Source: Planctomycetota bacterium (GTDB lineage Bacteria; Planctomycetota; Phycisphaerae; Sedimentisphaerales; Anaerobacaceae). Taken from it: DNA of 34,193 nt. Both the position numbers and the translations under genes were made by a program. Below, piece by piece: positions 1-27,026 of the stretch (positions are counted from its first letter, which is position 1; the number at the start of each line of letters is the position of its first letter). Under the pieces are notes generated by a model, which did no database searches, was not told where the DNA came from, and saw only the letters and a program-made list of their open reading frames with translations. Where the stretch lies: NCBI GenBank assembly GCA_023135935.1, contig JAGLSU010000067.1:1-34193 (forward strand), given 5' to 3'.

Positions 1-1018
1 GCATCCACGCCTCTATATCGAATTTCTTCGCCTGACCTCTTCCCAAATCTCCGCTGCATACAACCGCAACTCGGTAGGGCAGTTCCAGCGCCTTCATCAC
101 TGCCTCAGCATTACTCAAAATCTCTCCGTGATACTTTTCGCTCTTTTCAGCATCATTCTCACAAATAACCACCTGCTCGACCTTATCGAACTGATGAATC
201 CTATACAATCCGTATGTATCCTTACCCGCTGCACCTGCCTCTCGCCTGAAACAACTCGACATCGAAACATATTTTTTCGGCAGACTCTTAAAATTCAATA
301 TCTCACCCATATGATATGCTGTCAAAGGAACCTCCGCCGTCCCAACTAGACTCAATTCGTCCCTCTCCATCTGGTAAGTCTGTTCTTCAGAACCCGGAAA
401 ATATCCCGTCCCGCGCATCACCTCATCTTTAGCCAAAAGCGGAACAATCAGCGGCACATAATCTTTACCAACCATATAATCCATCGAAAACTGCAATATA
501 GCCCAGTGCAGCAATGCGCCGTCACCTTTAAGAAAATAATTCCGAGTACCAGCCAACTTCACACCACGCTCGATATCTATAATCCCCAAATCCAATCCCA
601 ACTGCAAATGGTCCTTCGGCTCAAAATCAAATTCCCGAATCTCTCCCTCTTTCCTTATCTCAACATTCTCACTATCATCCTTACCTACGGGAACATCCTC
701 ATCCGCCGGCTGTGGAACCTCCGACATCAACGCATCAAATTCCGGCTGCAGTTCCTTAACATCTTTGTCAATAACCGCCTCATCCTCTTTGAGTTTCGAC
801 AACTTCGCCAATGCCGCTTCTTTTTCATCACCTGACAACTTCGGTATCGATTTGCCGATTTGATTCTTCTCGGTAACAATATCCTGAAGCTGCTGTTTTC
901 CTTTTTTCAGCGCCTCGTCAATCTCGAGCAACCTGTCAATATTCACCTTGAAGTATTTATCCTTAGCCGCCTTTTCAAATCTCTCAGGATTTTCCCGTAT
1001 CTCTTTTATATCTATCAT
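1..1018 (-). CDS. serS: Seryl-tRNA synthetase (C-terminal end truncated by window edge)
   Basis: Reverse-strand translation from the ATG at 1018: MIDIKEIRENPERFEKAAKDKYFKVNIDRLLEIDEALKKGKQQLQDIVTEKNQIGKSIPKLSG..., later FRREAGAAGKDTYGLYRIHQFDKVEQ. These are class II SerRS coiled-coil arm and motif-2 signatures. The frame stays open to position 1, so it is absent from the ORF track. Confidence 0.95.
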   Translation of the reverse strand, partial: MIDIKEIRENPERFEKAAKDKYFKVNIDRLLEIDEALKKGKQQLQDIVTEKNQIGKSIPKLSGDEKEAALAKLSKLKEDEAVIDKDVKELQPEFDALMSEVPQPADEDVPVGKDDSENVEIRKEGEIREFDFEPKDHLQLGLDLGIIDIERGVKLAGTRNYFLKGDGALLHWAILQFSMDYMVGKDYVPLIVPLLAKDEVMRGTGYFPGSEEQTYQMERDELSLVGTAEVPLTAYHMGEILNFKSLPKKYVSMSSCFRREAGAAGKDTYGLYRIHQFDKVEQVVICENDAEKSEKYHGEILSNAEAVMKALELPYRVAVVCSGDLGRGQAKKFDIEAWM

Positions 1019-1020
1019 GA

Positions 1021-2343
1021 TTATTCCTGGTATCTTTTTATAATCACCACATTATTTTGTCCGCCGAACCCAAACGATTCATTCATCGCAACATCTATCT
1101 GCATCTTTCTCGGCTCATTCGGCACATAATCCAAATCCAGTTCCCCGTCCTTGTCATGCAGGTTCATCGTCGGAGGAGCCGTATTATCACGTATAGCCAA
1201 AACACATGTAATCAACTCCGCCGCTCCCGCCGCACCAATCAAATGTCCCAGCATACTCTTAACACTACTTACCGGCGTGTTCTTCGCCTCTTCCTTAAAC
1301 ACCGCCTTAATCGCCTTCGTCTCTATCGAATCATTCTCCGTCGTACTCGTCCCGTGCGCGTTCACATAATCAACATCCTTATAACTAATCCCCGCATCCG
1401 ACAATGCCGACCTTATAGCCTGCGCCGCTCCGCGCCCATCCTCATGCATGTCTGTCACACGAAACGCGTCCGAACTGCTCCCGTAACCGATAACCTCTGC
1501 GAAAATCTCGGCTCCTCTTTTCTCTGCCGAACTCAAACTCTCAAGAACCACCACAGCTGCTCCCTCACCCAAAACAAATCCGTCCCTGCTCGCGCTGAAC
1601 GGCCGCGATGCCGTCTCCGGACTGTCGTTCCTCGTCGATAACGCCGTCAACCGATTAAATCCCATCAAACCCAAAGGATGTATCATCGAATGCGCTCCGC
1701 CGGCTATCATCACGTCAGCGTCACCCCTGCGAATTATATTCGTTGCCTCACCAATCGCCTGAGTACTCGCCGCACATGCCGTAAGACAACTGCGCGTTGG
1801 CCCGCGAGCTCCCGTCACCATCGTCACATGAGCCACCGGCATATTCGATTCCTGCTCAAGCTCACACGTCGCGCTCATCTGCCCGAATGCTGTCTCCGCC
1901 CACTTCCCCCAATCCATTTCATTTTTCTCACCGTCCCAGCCGTTCGCAATCGAATTGAAAAACGCCTCATTATCTACGGAACCTTCGCCGGCACCAAGAT
2001 ATACCCCCAATCTGCTGCGCTCTATTCCATCGCTCGGCTCATCCGTCTCAATATCTATCCCCGCCTGCCCGCATGCCTGACTCACCGCACCAACTACAAA
2101 ACTCGAACCACGACTGCCACATTCGTGCAGCTGCGTTTTTCTAGTGTACTTACTCATATCGTAATTCTTAACTTCCGCGCTGAATGTTGTCGGACACGTC
2201 GATGCGTCAAAAATCGTCGTCTTACCCACCCCATTCTTGCCCGTCATCATACCTGACCACATCGTCTCAACGTCGTGACCCATCGGGCAGATAACTCCCA
2301 TCCCCGTTATTACAACTCGCTCTTTGTTACCCTTATCTAACAT
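1021..2343 (-). CDS. fabF: Beta-ketoacyl-ACP synthase II (KSα-like, catalytically complete)
   Basis: VVITGMGVICPMG start; active-site TACAAST (Cys codon 1774-1776); NAHGTST and KSMLGHLIGAAGAAE His motifs; C-terminal NESFGFGGQNNVVIIKR. Confidence 0.95.
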   Translation of the reverse strand: MLDKGNKERVVITGMGVICPMGHDVETMWSGMMTGKNGVGKTTIFDASTCPTTFSAEVKNYDMSKYTRKTQLHECGSRGSSFVVGAVSQACGQAGIDIETDEPSDGIERSRLGVYLGAGEGSVDNEAFFNSIANGWDGEKNEMDWGKWAETAFGQMSATCELEQESNMPVAHVTMVTGARGPTRSCLTACAASTQAIGEATNIIRRGDADVMIAGGAHSMIHPLGLMGFNRLTALSTRNDSPETASRPFSASRDGFVLGEGAAVVVLESLSSAEKRGAEIFAEVIGYGSSSDAFRVTDMHEDGRGAAQAIRSALSDAGISYKDVDYVNAHGTSTTENDSIETKAIKAVFKEEAKNTPVSSVKSMLGHLIGAAGAAELITCVLAIRDNTAPPTMNLHDKDGELDLDYVPNEPRKMQIDVAMNESFGFGGQNNVVIIKRYQE

Positions 2344-3660
2344 CTAATCCTCGAACCTCTTCAATACTATCGCAGCCGTCTGACCGCCATAAGTATAACT
2401 GCAGCACAGAACATAACGTATCTCTTTCTTTATCTCCTCTGTCACAATATTCAAATTGCAACCCTCCGCTTTCTTGTCGCAATTCTTCGCTGCCGGTATC
2501 TTCCCCTCAGTTATAGCGAAAACAGCCGCGACAACATCAATCGCACCGCATGCCGCTCCCGTATTACTCAACATACTCTTCGTCGGCCAAACAGCAACAT
2601 CACTCACTGCTCCGCCCAATGCCGCTTCTATACCTCGCGACTCCGCCAAATCGTCAGCTGCTATCCCCGTCCCATGCGGAATAATCAAATCCAAATCCGC
2701 CGCGACAATTTCCGCATCCGCCAATGCCTTCTCTATCGCTATCTGAACACCCTTACCATCCGCCTCCAAATGCTCATAAGCCGAATTTATACTATTGCTC
2801 TGTCCAATACCGGCAACCTCAGCATAAATCTTTGCTCCACGTTCCGTTGCCTTCTCCAGATTCTCCAGCACCACCACTCCGGCACCTTCACCGAAAACCG
2901 CTCCCTTGGCATCGGCATCGTAAGGCCGACACGCACTCTCCGGCTCTGCGTTATTTTCGCTCGTCGCTCTACCAAGCAAACACTGACGAATCATAATCAA
3001 AGGATTCACCTTCGCCTCCGCACCACCTGCTAAAGCAACGTCAGCGTCACCCCGCGCAATAATCTGAGATGCCTCACCTATTGCCAGCTGTGCCGCTGCC
3101 TCCGCACATGTAATCGTATTGCTCGGTCCCTCAATATCGTGAATTATTCCTACATGACACGCAAGCATGTTGGGCAGATACTTCAACAACCACAAAGGCG
3201 TCACTAACTCTACTCCCTCTTTGCCCCATTTGCGAACATCGAACTTCCCCTCGGAAACACTTGCCGCCACTGCCGGTGCCAACTCTTCCAAATCGCAGCT
3301 TATAAGTCCCGCCCCAAAATTAATCGCCATACGGCTCGGCTCTACATTAATATTCTCAGCGTCAATCCCTTTGGTAACTAATCCGCTGCTCCTCAACGCT
3401 TCATCCGCTGCCACAACCGAAAGCTTAATGTCCCTCGACATCATCTTCACTGCCTTACGCTCGCTCTTCGGTAGATACTTCTGCACCTTAAATTCATCAA
3501 CTTCACCGGCTATCTTGCAGCTAAAACCCGACGGGTCAAATGCCGTAATCTTATCTATCCCGCACTTACCCGCGCAAAGACTCTCCCACATCTCAACACT
3601 GGTATTTCCTACGGGACTTATCGAACCAAGGCCGGTTATCACTACGCGAGCAGAACTCAT
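2344..3660 (-). CDS. KSβ / chain-length-factor-like beta-ketoacyl synthase homologue with altered active site
   Basis: VVITGLGSISPVG, HGTGIAADDLAE and YTYGGQTAAIVLKRFED thiolase-fold motifs. Aligned to the neighbouring FabF, the catalytic Cys is Glu (GPSNTITCAEAAAQLAIGEA; Glu codon 3100-3102) and the second catalytic His is Asn (KSMLSNTGAACGA; Asn codon 2563-2565). Confidence 0.88.
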   Translation of the reverse strand: MSSARVVITGLGSISPVGNTSVEMWESLCAGKCGIDKITAFDPSGFSCKIAGEVDEFKVQKYLPKSERKAVKMMSRDIKLSVVAADEALRSSGLVTKGIDAENINVEPSRMAINFGAGLISCDLEELAPAVAASVSEGKFDVRKWGKEGVELVTPLWLLKYLPNMLACHVGIIHDIEGPSNTITCAEAAAQLAIGEASQIIARGDADVALAGGAEAKVNPLIMIRQCLLGRATSENNAEPESACRPYDADAKGAVFGEGAGVVVLENLEKATERGAKIYAEVAGIGQSNSINSAYEHLEADGKGVQIAIEKALADAEIVAADLDLIIPHGTGIAADDLAESRGIEAALGGAVSDVAVWPTKSMLSNTGAACGAIDVVAAVFAITEGKIPAAKNCDKKAEGCNLNIVTEEIKKEIRYVLCCSYTYGGQTAAIVLKRFED

Positions 3661-4136
3661 TACTCTGTCTCCGAAAAAACCGCACCCTGAAGAAGTGATT
3701 TGAACAAATCGGTAAACACGAAATTCTCCTCCGGAAAACTCTTACCCGCTAAGTTCTGGTCTATATGACTGAACATCAAATCTATCTCTGCTATCACTTT
3801 GCCCTCGACAGTAACCTTACCGCTCGTACTCGCCGCCTCATCAGCAATAGATTCTATCTTCGCCTCCAACCTCAAGGTATCTCCAGGCCGGGCACATTCG
3901 AAAAATACGCACTTCTTTATCTTGGCCAGAATAACCTTCTCTTGAAACTTCTTCGCCTCCCCAACGAGTATACCCGCCGTCTGCGCCATCGCTTCGATAA
4001 TCAAACATTCCGGCATAACGGGATAGCCCGGAAAATGGTCGTGCAAATGCTCCTCGGAAAGTGTCACATTCTTTATCGACACGGCACTTACACCGCGGCG
4101 GAACTCAACAAATTTATCTATCCATATCCAACGCAT
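3660..4136 (-). CDS. FabZ/FabA-like hotdog-fold (3R)-hydroxyacyl-ACP dehydratase
   Basis: HFPGYPVMPECLIIEAMAQTAG with catalytic His and Glu. Overlaps the KSβ gene start by 1 nt (TAATG). Confidence 0.85.
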   Translation of the reverse strand: MRWIWIDKFVEFRRGVSAVSIKNVTLSEEHLHDHFPGYPVMPECLIIEAMAQTAGILVGEAKKFQEKVILAKIKKCVFFECARPGDTLRLEAKIESIADEAASTSGKVTVEGKVIAEIDLMFSHIDQNLAGKSFPEENFVFTDLFKSLLQGAVFSETE

Positions 4137-4217: not shown

Positions 4218-4613
4218 TTAAGCCGCGTTCAGCTTGCCCTCAACGTAATTTACAATCGCGTCGACCGTAAACAAATTACCAAGCTTATTTATATCAGGGT
4301 CACCTTCGAACGTACTTATATCAGTATGCGGCATCTTTTCACGAAGTTCCTTAAGACCAACCTCTGTCAATTTACCGTTACTGATAAATTCAGGATTGCT
4401 CAGAAGACTCTCCGCTGGGAATAATTCCTCGCGTGCAATCTTTATCCCGAACGCCTTTTCCAATCGAAACACTATGTCCAAAAAGTCGATGCTCTCCGCA
4501 CCCAAATCTCCCATCAACGTTGCCGTTGCCGTAACCTCATCATCATCTACACCCAACGCCTCTACCATCACTTCGCTAACTTCTTGGAATATCTCGTCCC
4601 GACTCATTGCCAT
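4218..4613 (-). CDS. Acyl carrier protein, extended form (131 aa)
   Basis: Phosphopantetheine site LGAESIDFLDIVFRLEKAFGIKI (Ser codon 4491-4493) and terminal TVDAIVNYVEGKL. GGAGG Shine-Dalgarno just upstream of the ATG. Confidence 0.9.
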   Translation of the reverse strand: MAMSRDEIFQEVSEVMVEALGVDDDEVTATATLMGDLGAESIDFLDIVFRLEKAFGIKIAREELFPAESLLSNPEFISNGKLTEVGLKELREKMPHTDISTFEGDPDINKLGNLFTVDAIVNYVEGKLNAA

Positions 4614-4665: not shown

Positions 4666-5145
4666 CTAATCCCTTAAAAGCTTCCAGCGATTCTTCATAT
4701 TCTCAACTACCTTGGCATCAACAGCCGCCAATGACGAATCATCATCTGAAAGGTTAAAATGTCTCAATCCGAATTTAGCTTCTATAATCAACTCGCCATT
4801 CGACAAGCCGACTCCGCTAAAACTGCTTACGCTATCTTCTATCGTTTTCACACTGACAGTATATTCTATCTGAGAACCCGGCGCAAGAAAACTCTTATAT
4901 TTTACATTTCTCGCCTCTCTAAGCAATATCATACTATGCGCAAAATTCTCTGCCTCACGAACCAGCCACGATGCCGACTCCACAAGACCCTCTAATAGCA
5001 GAACACCCGGCAAAACGGGAAAAGTAGGGAAGTGGTCCGCCAAATATTCCTCACTCAGAGAAACACTCTTGACAGCCTTAATCTCCTTGCCCGGCTCCAG
5101 CGACACTATCTTGTCTATCAGTACAAATTTCATAATCTCAAACAT
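4666..5145 (-). CDS. Second FabZ/FabA-like hotdog-fold protein
   Basis: DHFPTFPVLPGVLLLEGLVESASWLV (His and Glu positions of FabZ retained). First gene of the minus-strand operon. Confidence 0.8.
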   Translation of the reverse strand: MFEIMKFVLIDKIVSLEPGKEIKAVKSVSLSEEYLADHFPTFPVLPGVLLLEGLVESASWLVREAENFAHSMILLREARNVKYKSFLAPGSQIEYTVSVKTIEDSVSSFSGVGLSNGELIIEAKFGLRHFNLSDDDSSLAAVDAKVVENMKNRWKLLRD

Positions 5146-5776: not shown

Positions 5777-6232
5777 ATGATGAAAAAGGAATTTTCCACA
5801 TGGGTGAGGTGGCTAAAACGGAATAGTCTCGATGGTATTGAGTTTCCGGGAGTCTATGCTATTGCCCGGTCCGACAAAAACATGGATGGCACGGCGTTTT
5901 CGTGGAGACGAGAGATTGTTTATGTGGGTATGACAAATGCCAAAGGCGGCCTGAAGTCTCGACTCCAGCAATTTGACAACACAATCAAAGGAAAGGACGG
6001 GCACGGTGGCGGCCAACGCGTCCATTTCAAGTATCCTAACTATGAGAATCTCACCCCTCAGCTATACGTCTCTGTCTGCCCTTACGAATGCGATGTGAAA
6101 TCTAACCGTCCTGACGACCTTCGCGTCATGGGGGAGGTTCTAAAGCAGGAATACGAGTGTTTTGCCATATTTGCCGAAACATTCAACCAATTGCCGGAGT
6201 TCAACGACAAGAAGCTATCACCGAAGAAATGA
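5777..6232 (+). CDS. GIY-YIG nuclease-like small protein
   Basis: PGVYAIAR ... EIVYVGMTNAKGGLKSRLQQF matches GIY, YIG and Arg elements of the GIY-YIG fold. Confidence 0.65.
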   Translation: MMKKEFSTWVRWLKRNSLDGIEFPGVYAIARSDKNMDGTAFSWRREIVYVGMTNAKGGLKSRLQQFDNTIKGKDGHGGGQRVHFKYPNYENLTPQLYVSVCPYECDVKSNRPDDLRVMGEVLKQEYECFAIFAETFNQLPEFNDKKLSPKK

Positions 6233-7388: not shown

Positions 7389-9437
7389 ATGGTTATCTCC
7401 TCCAAACGTGCTGAATATTTATCTCGCACCGCTTTAGCCATAAGCGTTGTGTTCTTTACCATCGTCTTACTCCTGGGTCAATGGAGTCAGTTCTTCGCCG
7501 TCTACGCTGTAAGCTATTTCATCTTAGCTACTGCCATGATTTGGGCTGTCTTATGTTTCCAGTTCCATCAAGCAGCTCTCGCCGAACAGGAAAAGCTCGA
7601 TATGTCACAGCTGACAAGTGACGAAAAAAATGCCGCTATCTTCAAAAACAAAGATGAGCACGCCTCTATGTTCGCAATGCAGCGGCGAAGACTCGAAATT
7701 TTCGAAAAATGGTTCCTCCCCGGTTTCTCCGCACTCATCGCTATATACCAATTAGCTATTGGCTACTATATTCTCAAAAAGCTCAATGCCGGACTCGAAT
7801 TATATCCAAGGCAACCACTCGTCTGTGCAATCTGCCTCACTGCCATCGCGTTCGTCAGTTTCCTTATCTCACGTTACGCTACCGGAATGTCCGCGCAAAA
7901 GCTCTGGAAACCTTTAAGAGCAGGGGGCAGTTTACTGCTCGGCACAGCATTCCTCTGTTTCGCCATAGCCATCGCTCTGGCACTGTCGCAATTCAAAATC
8001 TTCGCGGTAATAAATGTCATTAACTACGTTATACCAATCCTGCTCATCATCCTCGGCGCCGAAACCGCCTTAAACATCGTCATGGATATCTACCGCCCAA
8101 GGATAAAAGGATTCTATAGCAGAAGTGCTTTCGACAGCAGACTGCTCGGACTCATAAATGAACCAGGAGAAATATTCCGAACAGCCGCATCAACTATCGA
8201 TTACCAGTTCGGCTTCAAGGTCTCGCAGACGTGGTTCTATAAACTACTCGAAAAAGCTATCGTTCCTCTCGTACTATTCGCCGCCCTAAACCTCTATTTG
8301 CTAAGCTGCATTGTCATCGTAGCACCAAACGAACAGGCTATAATAGAGCACTTCGGCAATCCAATGAACGATGCCAAACAAGTCAGAATCATCGGACCGG
8401 GATTAGCTTTCAAATGGCCGTGGCCAATTGATATCGCGTACAAATATCCTACTAAAATGATTTCCGAAATTTATATCGGCTTCACACCAAAAGACGACGA
8501 GCACGCACATGATACCTCTTTACTCTGGGGAAAAGAACACCACGAACAAGAGGACATGCTGCTTATCGCCAGCGGACAAACAGATGAAAAAACCGGCACC
8601 GTACCCGTGAGCCTGCTCATCACCACCGTACCCATACAATACAGAGTAAAGGACTTATACTCTTATCTATACAATCATAACGAACCGAAAGAACTATTCA
8701 AATCCATCTGTTATCGCGAGCTCACAAGGCTCGCAGCAAGCACAAAAATAGAAGTCAACAATCAAGACGATATCGAAAAAAGCATACTCGGAGCTGGACG
8801 GGCACAGGCAAAAAAAATACTGACACAAAGAATACAAAATGCTGTGGACGAAGAAGGACTCGGAATAGAAATCGTCTTTTTAGGACTCCAGGGAATACAT
8901 CCGCCGCCTCAGGTTGCTGTCGATTATCAAAAAGTTGTCGGCGCCGTACAAAAAAAACAGGCACTTATACTGCGAGCCCATGCCAAGCGTAATGAAATTT
9001 TAAGCAGTCTCGCTGGCTCCGTCTCTGATGCTGAAAAACTCTATGAACTTGCTGCCAAATACCAAAACGCAAAAAACAAAAATGACACAAAACAACTCGA
9101 CATGCTTGAAAAACAATTAGATGAAGCATTCGCACAGGCAAGTGGCGAAATCTTCACAACACTAAGAGATGCACAAAGCTATTCATTCAAAAAAGCTACA
9201 CTCGCGAAAGCTACGGGACAAAGATTTGATAGCCAGCTAAAAGCATATAGAGCCGCAAAAAGTATCTATAAACGCCAGCAAAGATTGGCTGCCTTGGAAG
9301 AAACTCTCGAAAACATAAGAAAATTTGTCATCGTCACTGACGAAAACGACACACAGGTTTTTATTGTCGATGTAAAAGAAAAACTAACACCAAGTTTGTA
9401 TGAATTAGGTGGTTTTGAGGAGCAATCCGGAAAATGA
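7389..9437 (+). CDS. SPFH/Band 7 domain protein, HflK-like, with multi-TM N-terminal region
   Basis: About 290 N-terminal residues with several hydrophobic segments, then IVAPNEQAIIEHFGNP...GPGLAFKWPWPID...RELTRLAAS...LGLQGIHPP, HflK/SPFH-like. Confidence 0.8.
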   Translation: MVISSKRAEYLSRTALAISVVFFTIVLLLGQWSQFFAVYAVSYFILATAMIWAVLCFQFHQAALAEQEKLDMSQLTSDEKNAAIFKNKDEHASMFAMQRRRLEIFEKWFLPGFSALIAIYQLAIGYYILKKLNAGLELYPRQPLVCAICLTAIAFVSFLISRYATGMSAQKLWKPLRAGGSLLLGTAFLCFAIAIALALSQFKIFAVINVINYVIPILLIILGAETALNIVMDIYRPRIKGFYSRSAFDSRLLGLINEPGEIFRTAASTIDYQFGFKVSQTWFYKLLEKAIVPLVLFAALNLYLLSCIVIVAPNEQAIIEHFGNPMNDAKQVRIIGPGLAFKWPWPIDIAYKYPTKMISEIYIGFTPKDDEHAHDTSLLWGKEHHEQEDMLLIASGQTDEKTGTVPVSLLITTVPIQYRVKDLYSYLYNHNEPKELFKSICYRELTRLAASTKIEVNNQDDIEKSILGAGRAQAKKILTQRIQNAVDEEGLGIEIVFLGLQGIHPPPQVAVDYQKVVGAVQKKQALILRAHAKRNEILSSLAGSVSDAEKLYELAAKYQNAKNKNDTKQLDMLEKQLDEAFAQASGEIFTTLRDAQSYSFKKATLAKATGQRFDSQLKAYRAAKSIYKRQQRLAALEETLENIRKFVIVTDENDTQVFIVDVKEKLTPSLYELGGFEEQSGK

Positions 9438-10324
9438 AAAATTTAGCTATTACAATCTTTATCGTTTTACTAATCGCTATCATGGCACTGTGCCTCGTTT
9501 CTTTCCAGGTCAGACAGATTCAATCTGCTCTGGTTACAACCTTCGGAAAACCAACAAGGCAAATTACCGAACCGGGTTGGTATTTCAGATGGCCGGCACC
9601 AATACAAAGGGTTTACAAATTCGACTCAAGAATGAGAGTCTTTGAAACCAGCGTCGGTGAGACAACAACAAAAACTGCCGTACCAATAATTGTAAATTCC
9701 TATCTCGTTTGGAAAATTGCCCAGCCGCTTGAGTTCTTCAACTCCGTCGGAACCGTCAAAGAAGCTGAAAACAAACTAAGAAGTCAAATCAGCGATACGC
9801 AAAACAAGGTTATAGGCCAGCATTACTTCTCAGAATTCGTAAATAGTGACCAATCAAAAATCAAAATCCGGCAAATCCAGAGCGAAATGCTCACTGACCT
9901 GAAACAAGCTGTCTTGGACGATTACGGTATCGAAATCAAAACACTCGGAATAAAACAACTAAAAATCAGCGACGATGTCACAAAGGATGTCTTCGAACGC
10001 ATGAGAGCCGAAAGAAACAGAAAAACACATGCCACCATCGCTCAAGGCAAAGCACAGGCAACTAAAATCCAAACCGATGCTGATTCCAAAAAAACCGAAC
10101 TGTTAGCCGCCGCTCAGGCAAGAGCAAAAGCTATCAGAGGCCAGGGTGATGCCGAAGCTGCAAAATACTACAAAATGCTCGAAGAAGACCCCGAACTCGC
10201 CATGTTCCTCAGAGATATCGAAGCACTCAAAAAAATACTGCGGGAAAGGTCAACCATCGTCCTAAGTGCCGATACCGAACCTTTTAAACTGCTAAAACAA
10301 ATGCCGGATATAAAACCAAAATAA
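9434..10324 (+). CDS. hflC: SPFH protein, HflC-like
   Basis: SFQVRQIQSALVTTFGKPTRQITEPGWYFRWPAPIQRVYKFDSRMRVFE; GIEIKTLGIKQLKISDDVTKDVFERMRAERNRKT. Overlaps the preceding stop by 4 nt (ATGA). Confidence 0.88.
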   Translation: MKNLAITIFIVLLIAIMALCLVSFQVRQIQSALVTTFGKPTRQITEPGWYFRWPAPIQRVYKFDSRMRVFETSVGETTTKTAVPIIVNSYLVWKIAQPLEFFNSVGTVKEAENKLRSQISDTQNKVIGQHYFSEFVNSDQSKIKIRQIQSEMLTDLKQAVLDDYGIEIKTLGIKQLKISDDVTKDVFERMRAERNRKTHATIAQGKAQATKIQTDADSKKTELLAAAQARAKAIRGQGDAEAAKYYKMLEEDPELAMFLRDIEALKKILRERSTIVLSADTEPFKLLKQMPDIKPK

Positions 10325-10328
10325 TAAA

Positions 10329-11609
10329 ATGACTGAACATAACCACGACAACGAAATAGAAAACAGCTCTCAGTCGCTCCCGACCGAGCAAGCAGACACC
10401 GATCAGCTCGATGTTGCAGGGAAATCGCTCTACGATGCCCTGAAAATCAGCTTCTTCATCCTGAAGATAATTATGCTCGTACTGGTAGTACTCTTTTTTA
10501 TCTCAGGATTCAGAATGGTCGAACCGGACGAACAGGCACTCGTACTAAGATTCGGAAAAATCAGGGGCCTTGCCGAAGACAAACTTCTCAACCCGGGGCT
10601 GCACTGGATATTCCCTTATCCAATAGACGAAATCGTAAAAATCCCCGTCGCCAAAAAGATAAACCTTCCCATTAACTCTTTCTGGTACTATCAATCAAAA
10701 AAAGACATACTCGCCGGAAAGAGCTCTACCAGAGTACCAACATCACTAAATCCAATTAAAGACGGATACTGCATCATCGGCGGTGAAAAACAAACTCAAT
10801 CAATCACCGACTCCTCTGGTGACGATTACAGCATCGTACATTCAAAATGGCAACTAACTTACCAAATCGACGACCCGGAACGTTTCTATAATAATGTTTA
10901 CACAGATAGCACAAAACCGGGACAAAGCTACACCGAAGTCATCAAAAAAAGCGTAACCCCTTTACTCGAAAACATCGTCGCCGATGCCGTCGTCGATGCC
11001 ATGGTCTATTACTCAATCGACGAAGCTATTTCAAGCCAGGACAGAATCCCCAAACACGTCAAAAAACTCGTTCAGCAAAAACTCGACGATATTCAAAGCG
11101 GAATAACCGCCGTCTCACTGCAACTAACTGACATAACTTGGCCGCGACAGGTCGACAAAGTATTTATCGCTTCAATAAAAGCCAGCCAGATAAGCCAAAA
11201 GGAAATTAGCGAAGCCAAGGGATATGCGGAAAACACCCTGAACGAAACTGCCGGACCCATCGCCGCTCAACTCCTCACTGCCATTAAGGACCAAACCTCC
11301 ACACAACAGCAGTTGGACATCTTCTGGAATCAATTAGCCGGCTCCGCGCAGCAGACAATCGCCCAAGCCAGAGCTTATCGAGGAAAAATAGTCGAAGCCG
11401 CAAAAGCAAATGCTGACTACCTCAAACAAATACTGCCCCAATACCGAAAAAGACCTAAACTTGTAATTCAAAATATTTATCAGGATGCAATCGAACACGT
11501 CCTCGAAAATGCGGATGAAAAAATGGTCATTCAACCCACCATAAGTGGCAAAGGAAGGGAAATCCGGATACTACTCAATAGGGACCCCGCAATAAAGAAG
11601 GAAAAATAA
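10329..11609 (+). CDS. hflK: SPFH protein, HflK-like
   Basis: GFRMVEPDEQALVLRFGKIRGLAEDKLLNPGLHWIFPYPIDEIVKIPV, SPFH domain after a single TM. Confidence 0.82.
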   Translation: MTEHNHDNEIENSSQSLPTEQADTDQLDVAGKSLYDALKISFFILKIIMLVLVVLFFISGFRMVEPDEQALVLRFGKIRGLAEDKLLNPGLHWIFPYPIDEIVKIPVAKKINLPINSFWYYQSKKDILAGKSSTRVPTSLNPIKDGYCIIGGEKQTQSITDSSGDDYSIVHSKWQLTYQIDDPERFYNNVYTDSTKPGQSYTEVIKKSVTPLLENIVADAVVDAMVYYSIDEAISSQDRIPKHVKKLVQQKLDDIQSGITAVSLQLTDITWPRQVDKVFIASIKASQISQKEISEAKGYAENTLNETAGPIAAQLLTAIKDQTSTQQQLDIFWNQLAGSAQQTIAQARAYRGKIVEAAKANADYLKQILPQYRKRPKLVIQNIYQDAIEHVLENADEKMVIQPTISGKGREIRILLNRDPAIKKEK

Positions 11610-26621: not shown

Positions 26622-27026
26622 ATGCAAAGCAAAAAGGGTTTCACGCTTATTGAACTAATGGTAGTGGTTCTTATCATTGGTATTTTAGCTGTAGTTGCGA
26701 TTACTACTATGCGAGGTCGTGTGGACGCAGCTAAATGGACGGAAGCAAAAGCAGGCATGAGCACCATCGCTACATCTCTCCGGGCTTATGCCGCCGAAAA
26801 AAATGTAGATGGAACATATCCTCCCTCGTTAGCCACCCTGGGCCTTATCGCCAGCGACCTTCACGGGACACATTTTGTTATCACTGATTATTCAATTGTC
26901 GCAGCCGCTTATACAATCGGTGCCGACCCGCAACTGACATACACCATTCGCTGTAACAAAGCTACCCTCGTACCAACCAGAATCGAACTCGACAACACCG
27001 GCACCTGGACTGAATCAAATCCATAA
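26622..27026 (+). CDS. Type IV pilin / type II secretion pseudopilin-like protein
   Basis: MQSKKGFTLIELMVVVLIIGILAVVAI: prepilin peptidase site G/FTLIE followed by a hydrophobic helix. Confidence 0.92.
   Translation: MQSKKGFTLIELMVVVLIIGILAVVAITTMRGRVDAAKWTEAKAGMSTIATSLRAYAAEKNVDGTYPPSLATLGLIASDLHGTHFVITDYSIVAAAYTIGADPQLTYTIRCNKATLVPTRIELDNTGTWTESNP

Follow-up and report, generated by a model that had tools for sequence, protein, structure and literature searches.

The 34,193-nucleotide stretch of planctomycete DNA analysed here (the window) carries two adjacent ketosynthase genes, one of which, at positions 2344–3660 of the reverse strand, encodes a protein with Glu in place of the catalytic Cys. 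This raises the question of whether the altered protein is a decaying duplicate of FabF, an enzyme with another activity, or the inactive partner in an enzyme of two subunits.

Active-site residues and gene neighbourhood of KSβ

The product of the altered gene, a KSβ (chain-length factor, CLF)-like subunit of 438 amino acids, contains the domains PF00109 and PF02801. The preliminary description of this DNA had assigned Glu to the nucleophile position and Asn to the second His position and had found the first His motif (HGTG) retained; all three assignments held. On the reverse strand, the GAG codon at 3100–3102 specifies Glu187 and the AAT codon at 2563–2565 specifies Asn366, and both His329 (HGTG) and Lys361 are present. 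The active-site segments of KSβ and the adjacent KSα aligned without gaps (20 vs 20 letters, 10 identities), with E opposite C. In the HMMER alignments, Glu187 shares a column, with no gap there, with Cys163 in Y. pestis FabF (4r8e) and with Gln in the E. coli FabF entries 2gfv and 9lpl, which we took as C163Q mutants from their titles. The neighbouring Cys185 (TCAE), two residues upstream of Glu187, had been named as the residue that might occupy the nucleophile position instead. Of 103 relatives, 21 have Ser, Ala, Thr or Leu instead, and because of this weaker conservation and the gapless alignment we rejected it as a shifted nucleophile. KSβ thus presents Glu187, His329 and Asn366 where FabF has its Cys-His-His triad, and differs from a KSQ domain, with Gln at the Cys position and both His, in having Glu and in the Asn at the second His. 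Its score against the fabF model TIGR03150 (321.6 bits) is below the equivalog cut-off of 493.75.

The partner gene (1021–2343, reverse strand) encodes a KSα of 440 amino acids with intact Cys190, His330, Lys362 and His367. Its start codon follows the stop codon of KSβ immediately and in frame, so that a single TAG separates the two proteins. The locus therefore has the arrangement that marks type II polyketide synthases (PKSs), a Cys-less protein of KS fold beside a KSα with intact Cys-His-His. All further genes of the cassette lie on the same strand. The start of KSβ overlaps by 1 base with the gene for DH1, a FabZ-like dehydratase (3660–4136; PF07977), and a second FabZ-like dehydratase, DH2, is found at 4666–5145 (PF07977); both contain the catalytic His and Glu. 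Between them lies the gene for a dedicated acyl carrier protein (ACP; 4218–4613; PF00550) of 131 amino acids with a C-terminal extension. Its phosphopantetheine Ser, within GAESIDFLD, is Ser in 64 of 65 relatives, the remaining one having a gap. Transcription runs in the order DH2-ACP-DH1-KSβ-KSα and then into a gene that is, by its sequence, serS for seryl-tRNA synthetase (1–1018, reverse strand, cut by the window edge), which begins 2 bases past the KSα stop. A serS homologue is located downstream in 47 of the 80 loci of relatives described below, and serS is a conserved operon neighbour that is probably not part of the pathway. The operon in the window contains no ketoreductase; in other planctomycete lineages, a FabG-like SDR/ketoreductase gene is part of it (L121, L124 and L129).

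AlphaFold predicted KSβ alone with a pLDDT of 90.2 and a pTM of 0.90, and the closest folds in the PDB were FabF proteins. The stretch of lowest confidence, residues 155–163, lies within the family signature PLWLLKYLPNM. We also modelled KSβ and KSα as a fusion of 879 residues, read through the TAG, together with 16 similar loci. This model reached a pLDDT of 87.9 and a pTM of 0.91, although AlphaFold may impose the familiar dimer on any two ketosynthases. For the signature region (residues ~151–170), pLDDT was 50/72 in KSβ alone and 68/81 in the fused model, a gain that fits a predicted position at the dimer interface, with the reservation that AlphaFold knows KS dimers.

Conservation and origin of the acidic KSβ

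A single genome scan yielded 80 loci, with titles including Planctomycetota, Phycisphaerae and Sedimentisphaerales, and the full five-gene order was kept in most of them. The nucleophile position of KSβ was acidic in all 81 Phycisphaerae-type sequences (73 Glu, 8 Asp), which supports the earlier suggestion of a distinct acidic KSβ subclass. Of these 81 sequences, two rows of which were incomplete, 49 had the first His and 13 the second, and Asn (55) was the commonest residue at the second position. Lys361 was mostly conserved in KSβ relatives. KSα had Cys in 76 of 76 sequences, and its His, Lys and His were invariant wherever sequence was present. Among 103 KSβ homologues of a wider set, the first His was present in 66 and the second in 27. 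On a 103-row KSβ tree, built without the acid and His columns, the acid changed to a non-acid 3 times, and the two His columns changed 18 and 16 times. By entropy, the acid ranked approximately 81st among 434 columns and the His columns approximately 231st and 226th. Judged from these alignments, the retention of an acid at the nucleophile position of KSβ exceeds chance. Since the acid is kept while the His positions drift, selection maintains the acid and not the machinery for decarboxylation.

Two exceptions were found. At the acid position, one lineage (L020, L021 and L033) carries Asn or Ser, and the operon is still present in L021. In genome G167, which consists of one contig, the gene for a Glu-type KSβ (L114) lies ~1.5 Mb away from the DH-KR-ACP-DH-KSα genes (L129); thus, tight linkage is not universal. 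The neighbours of this separated gene are unrelated, encoding an AIR carboxylase and an IF-2B-like protein.

These data bear on three other explanations of KSβ. That it is a functionless FabF duplicate in decay might be read from its broken catalytic residues and from its lower conservation relative to KSα. The frames are, however, full-length in nearly all loci, the acid is retained, the operon position is fixed across the class, and the fold is predicted with high confidence; this explanation has next to no probability, and the class-wide conservation of KSβ led us to reject a pseudogene.

Decarboxylation is reported for actinobacterial KSβ and loading KSQ domains, which carry Gln at the position in question, as does our Streptomyces CLF reference. 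The preliminary description had accordingly raised the possibility that KSβ is a KSQ-like priming factor that converts malonyl-ACP to acetyl-ACP, with the acid replacing Gln. This proposal did not hold up well. Decarboxylation uses the His pair, both members of which are given as indispensable in PMC2649909, and in KSβ this pair is broken: the second His is Asn in the window and lost in most homologues, the first is lost in about a third, and only the acid stays. Priming is therefore very unlikely.

Alternatively, the acid could catalyse a new reaction, such as acyl-ACP hydrolysis, isomerisation or acyl transfer, which would make KSβ a second enzyme and not a scaffold. The persistence of Glu or Asp amid drifting catalytic residues fits selection on a carboxylate. 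The same drift, together with the interchange of Glu and Asp, nevertheless suggests a structural role. The lineage with Asn or Ser at this position, one member of which keeps the operon, also speaks against a catalytic acid, which we consider unlikely. The KSβ in the window, which keeps one His and the Lys, could conceivably have some residual activity.

In a maximum-likelihood tree, the KSα (99/94) and KSβ (97/84) sequences each formed a clade, and the two clades mirrored each other. Asp/Glu homologues from planctomycetes outside the class (L022–L029) fell into the same clade as the KSβ of the window. The preliminary description had proposed that the adjacent genes encode a KSα/KSβ heterodimer, and gene adjacency, the mirrored clades and, more tentatively, the fused model support such a pair; we rate a heterodimer role of KSβ as quite likely. 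Sister to each clade is a family with the same operon in which both ketosynthases have Cys-His-His (L013, L015, L016 and L017; also L120 and L125). The simplest reading of this unrooted tree would be that an ancestral pair of active ketosynthases lost the Cys in one line. Given these sister operons, the acidic KSβ probably evolved inside the Planctomycetota, separately from the chain-length factors of actinobacteria. An AU test rejected a joint clade of the acidic KSβ and one Streptomyces CLF (p = 0.0145, with a long-branch caveat), and an origin independent of actinobacterial CLFs is likely, if not proven.

Dehydratase pair and core status of the cassette

In FabZ dimers, each active site is composed of the His of one chain and the Glu of the other. 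Among relatives, DH1 had Glu in 71 of 71 sequences and His in 59 of 71; DH2 had His in 61 of 61, with Glu in 47 and Gln in 14. The same asymmetry was seen in the 67 loci with both genes (L034–L129), where DH1-Glu and DH2-His were each present in 67 of 67, DH1-His was kept in 56 and lost in 11, and DH2-Glu was kept in 51 and lost in 16, counts that are inflated by shared ancestry. Loss of DH1-His and of DH2-Glu within one locus was not significantly associated (Fisher p = 0.115). The lineage with Cys in both ketosynthases likewise lacks DH1-His (L120 and L125). In view of the composite sites of FabZ, the invariant DH1-Glu and DH2-His suggest that DH1 and DH2 form a heterodimer in which one composite site is guarded.

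The preliminary description had proposed a search for another canonical FabF in the genome. The source assembly (1.93 Mb, 158 contigs, 84% complete) contains one further ketosynthase, a canonical FabF with Cys-His-His on a separate contig (C107), and FabZ-like genes outside the cassette are present as well. Exactly three KS C-terminal domains were found in 47 of 59 genomes of the order, typically FabF, KSα and KSβ. Exactly four FabA-like domains were found in 49 of the 59: two belong to the cassette dehydratases, one to a frame of ~440 residues, which would match the size of an LpxC-FabZ fusion, and one to a stand-alone protein of ~160 residues. Even assemblies as small as 1.7 Mb keep the set. 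The pair is thus a core feature separate from FabF, and we conclude that nearly every member of the order carries one copy of the operon, which belongs to core metabolism. Neither aryl starter nor ligase genes were found at the locus, whose flanks are housekeeping genes; flanking genes that recur were read as serS, ComEC-like, GNAT and ABC permease genes. With one copy per genome and housekeeping-like flanks, we rejected an accessory biosynthetic gene cluster. A tblastn search of plasmids gave no match above 60% identity. The proposal that the pair makes a dedicated acyl or polyene chain apart from housekeeping fatty acid synthesis therefore stands in part: the separate FabF and FabZ-like genes support separate chain making, and the locus is not an accessory polyene cluster.

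Other parts of the window were noted by eye. Three consecutive frames at 7389–11609 (forward strand) resemble HflK/HflC (SPFH); the first, of 682 amino acids, has extra membrane segments, and a homologue occurs near the cassette in 15 loci of relatives. A frame of 151 amino acids at 5777–6232 (forward strand) has a GIY-YIG-like start (GVYAIA...YVGMT) and no Pfam match, and the frame at 26622–27026 (forward strand) has a type IV pilin-like prepilin sequence (KKGFTLIELMVVVLIIGILA).

Comparison with known systems and candidate products

Such a substitution has been seen before. Rattray et al. (2009; PMC2649909, Table 2) tabulated two FabF paralogues of Rhodopirellula baltica, RB3714 with Asp163 and RB4527 with Glu163. 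Both, like KSβ, are FabF homologues from a planctomycete in which an acid takes the place of Cys163, and the second His is altered in one of the two, as in KSβ (Asn366). The likeness is drawn from this published table, which gives no account of a KSα partner, a subunit role, an operon or conservation across a class. The anammox ladderane FabFs in the same source were rejected as a match, as their residue 163 is Val, Phe or Ser (PMC2649909).

With type II PKSs such as the actinorhodin KS-CLF (1tqy), the cassette shares an adjacent KS pair of the same fold with one Cys-less member. It differs in the rejected common clade, in its lack of cyclases and aromatases, and in the residue itself, which is Gln in the Streptomyces reference, Glu in the window and either Glu or Asp among relatives. 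KSβ scored ~336 bits to FabF, compared with 211 bits to actinorhodin KS 2/CLF. In the cispentacin pathway, AmcF and its "cyclization factor" AmcG likewise pair an active with a degenerate ketosynthase and combine a cassette ACP with borrowed fatty acid synthesis enzymes (PMC10698177). In AmcG, however, functional motifs and part of the secondary structure are missing, whereas KSβ has the full KS fold and its best scores to FabF models.

The cassette also resembles the highly reducing type II PKSs of aryl polyene type (ApeO-ApeC, dehydratases ApeH-ApeP and ketoreductase ApeQ; PMC8358021). Both systems unite a KS pair, paired dehydratases and an ACP in one operon, the ketoreductase is encoded in relatives of the cassette, and the operon lacks an enoyl reductase. 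The cassette differs in having no aryl starter or ligase genes and in consisting of core genes rather than an accessory cluster. By analogy, an unsaturated or polyene chain is a candidate product.

A second candidate, concerning the product and not the role of KSβ, is a very long chain (hydroxy) fatty acid of lipid A, made as in rhizobia by an acpXL-type system. The organisation resembles acpXL-fabZXL-fabF2XL-fabF1XL (PMC11901934), with a dedicated ACP, a dehydratase and two adjacent ketosynthases. One FabZ domain of the genome sits in a frame of 438 residues, a length that an LpxC-FabZ fusion would have; this makes lipid A plausible, and the core conservation agrees with an envelope lipid. 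Against this, the operon has neither an lpxXL acyltransferase nor an alcohol dehydrogenase gene and contains two dehydratases instead of one. Moreover, the scores against NCBIfam models that we take to represent the XL families remained far under their cut-offs (ACP, NF005079, 46.3 vs 83; KSβ, NF005084, 72.9 vs 320; KSα, NF005076, 298.6 vs 629). We regard an acpXL-type system as rather unlikely, and any specific product class can be named only tentatively; the literature on Phycisphaerae lipids offered nothing usable to name the product.

Planctomycetes were listed among the phyla with KS-CLF-like pairs by McBride et al. (2023), who classed more than half of the non-actinobacterial pairs as FAS-FAS (PMC10132072). 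In three Phycisphaerae type strains, antiSMASH found no type II PKS and one aryl polyene hit (PMC8882080); if these strains carry the cassette, genome mining seems to miss it. New, as far as we found, are the operon, its core status, the near-perfect conservation of the acid, the sister operons with both Cys and the asymmetry of the dehydratases.

Proposed function and significance

Because relatives keep the acid and almost always pair KSβ with a working partner, KSβ probably serves as the inactive member of a two-subunit enzyme that makes a special lipid chain. More specifically, we find it likely that KSβ is a non-catalytic, chain-length-factor-like subunit of a KSα/KSβ heterodimer that makes a dedicated acyl chain. 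The best reading of the cassette would be two heterodimers, KSα/KSβ and DH1/DH2, acting on a dedicated ACP. Beyond gene content and residue conservation, the following steps are inferred. Cys190 of KSα would accept an acyl group from the ACP, and the two His of KSα would decarboxylate malonyl-ACP before condensation. KSβ would shape a tunnel at the interface of the two subunits, and the growing chain would extend into it. A FabG would reduce the ketone, acting in trans here and encoded by the operon in other planctomycete lineages, and DH1:DH2 would dehydrate the product with DH2-His and DH1-Glu. The acid of KSβ would occupy the inactive site where the buried helix begins, possibly paired with Lys361, and is most likely structural rather than a catalyst. 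The product is probably a dedicated acyl chain for a core envelope or membrane lipid.

A broader proposal, to which we give somewhat less than an even chance, is that Planctomycetota evolved, independently of actinobacterial PKSs, a chain-length factor of the acid type together with an asymmetric dehydratase heterodimer to match. A core pathway for an undescribed lipid would then contain two consecutive chain-building steps, each with one working and one dead or decaying site. If so, the trick of silencing one half of a KS dimer arose more than once and serves, in this case, a core lipid pathway and not a natural-product cluster. The sister operons with both Cys would provide a natural before-and-after pair for the effect of Cys loss, and an undescribed acyl product common to a whole planctomycete class would be worth finding.
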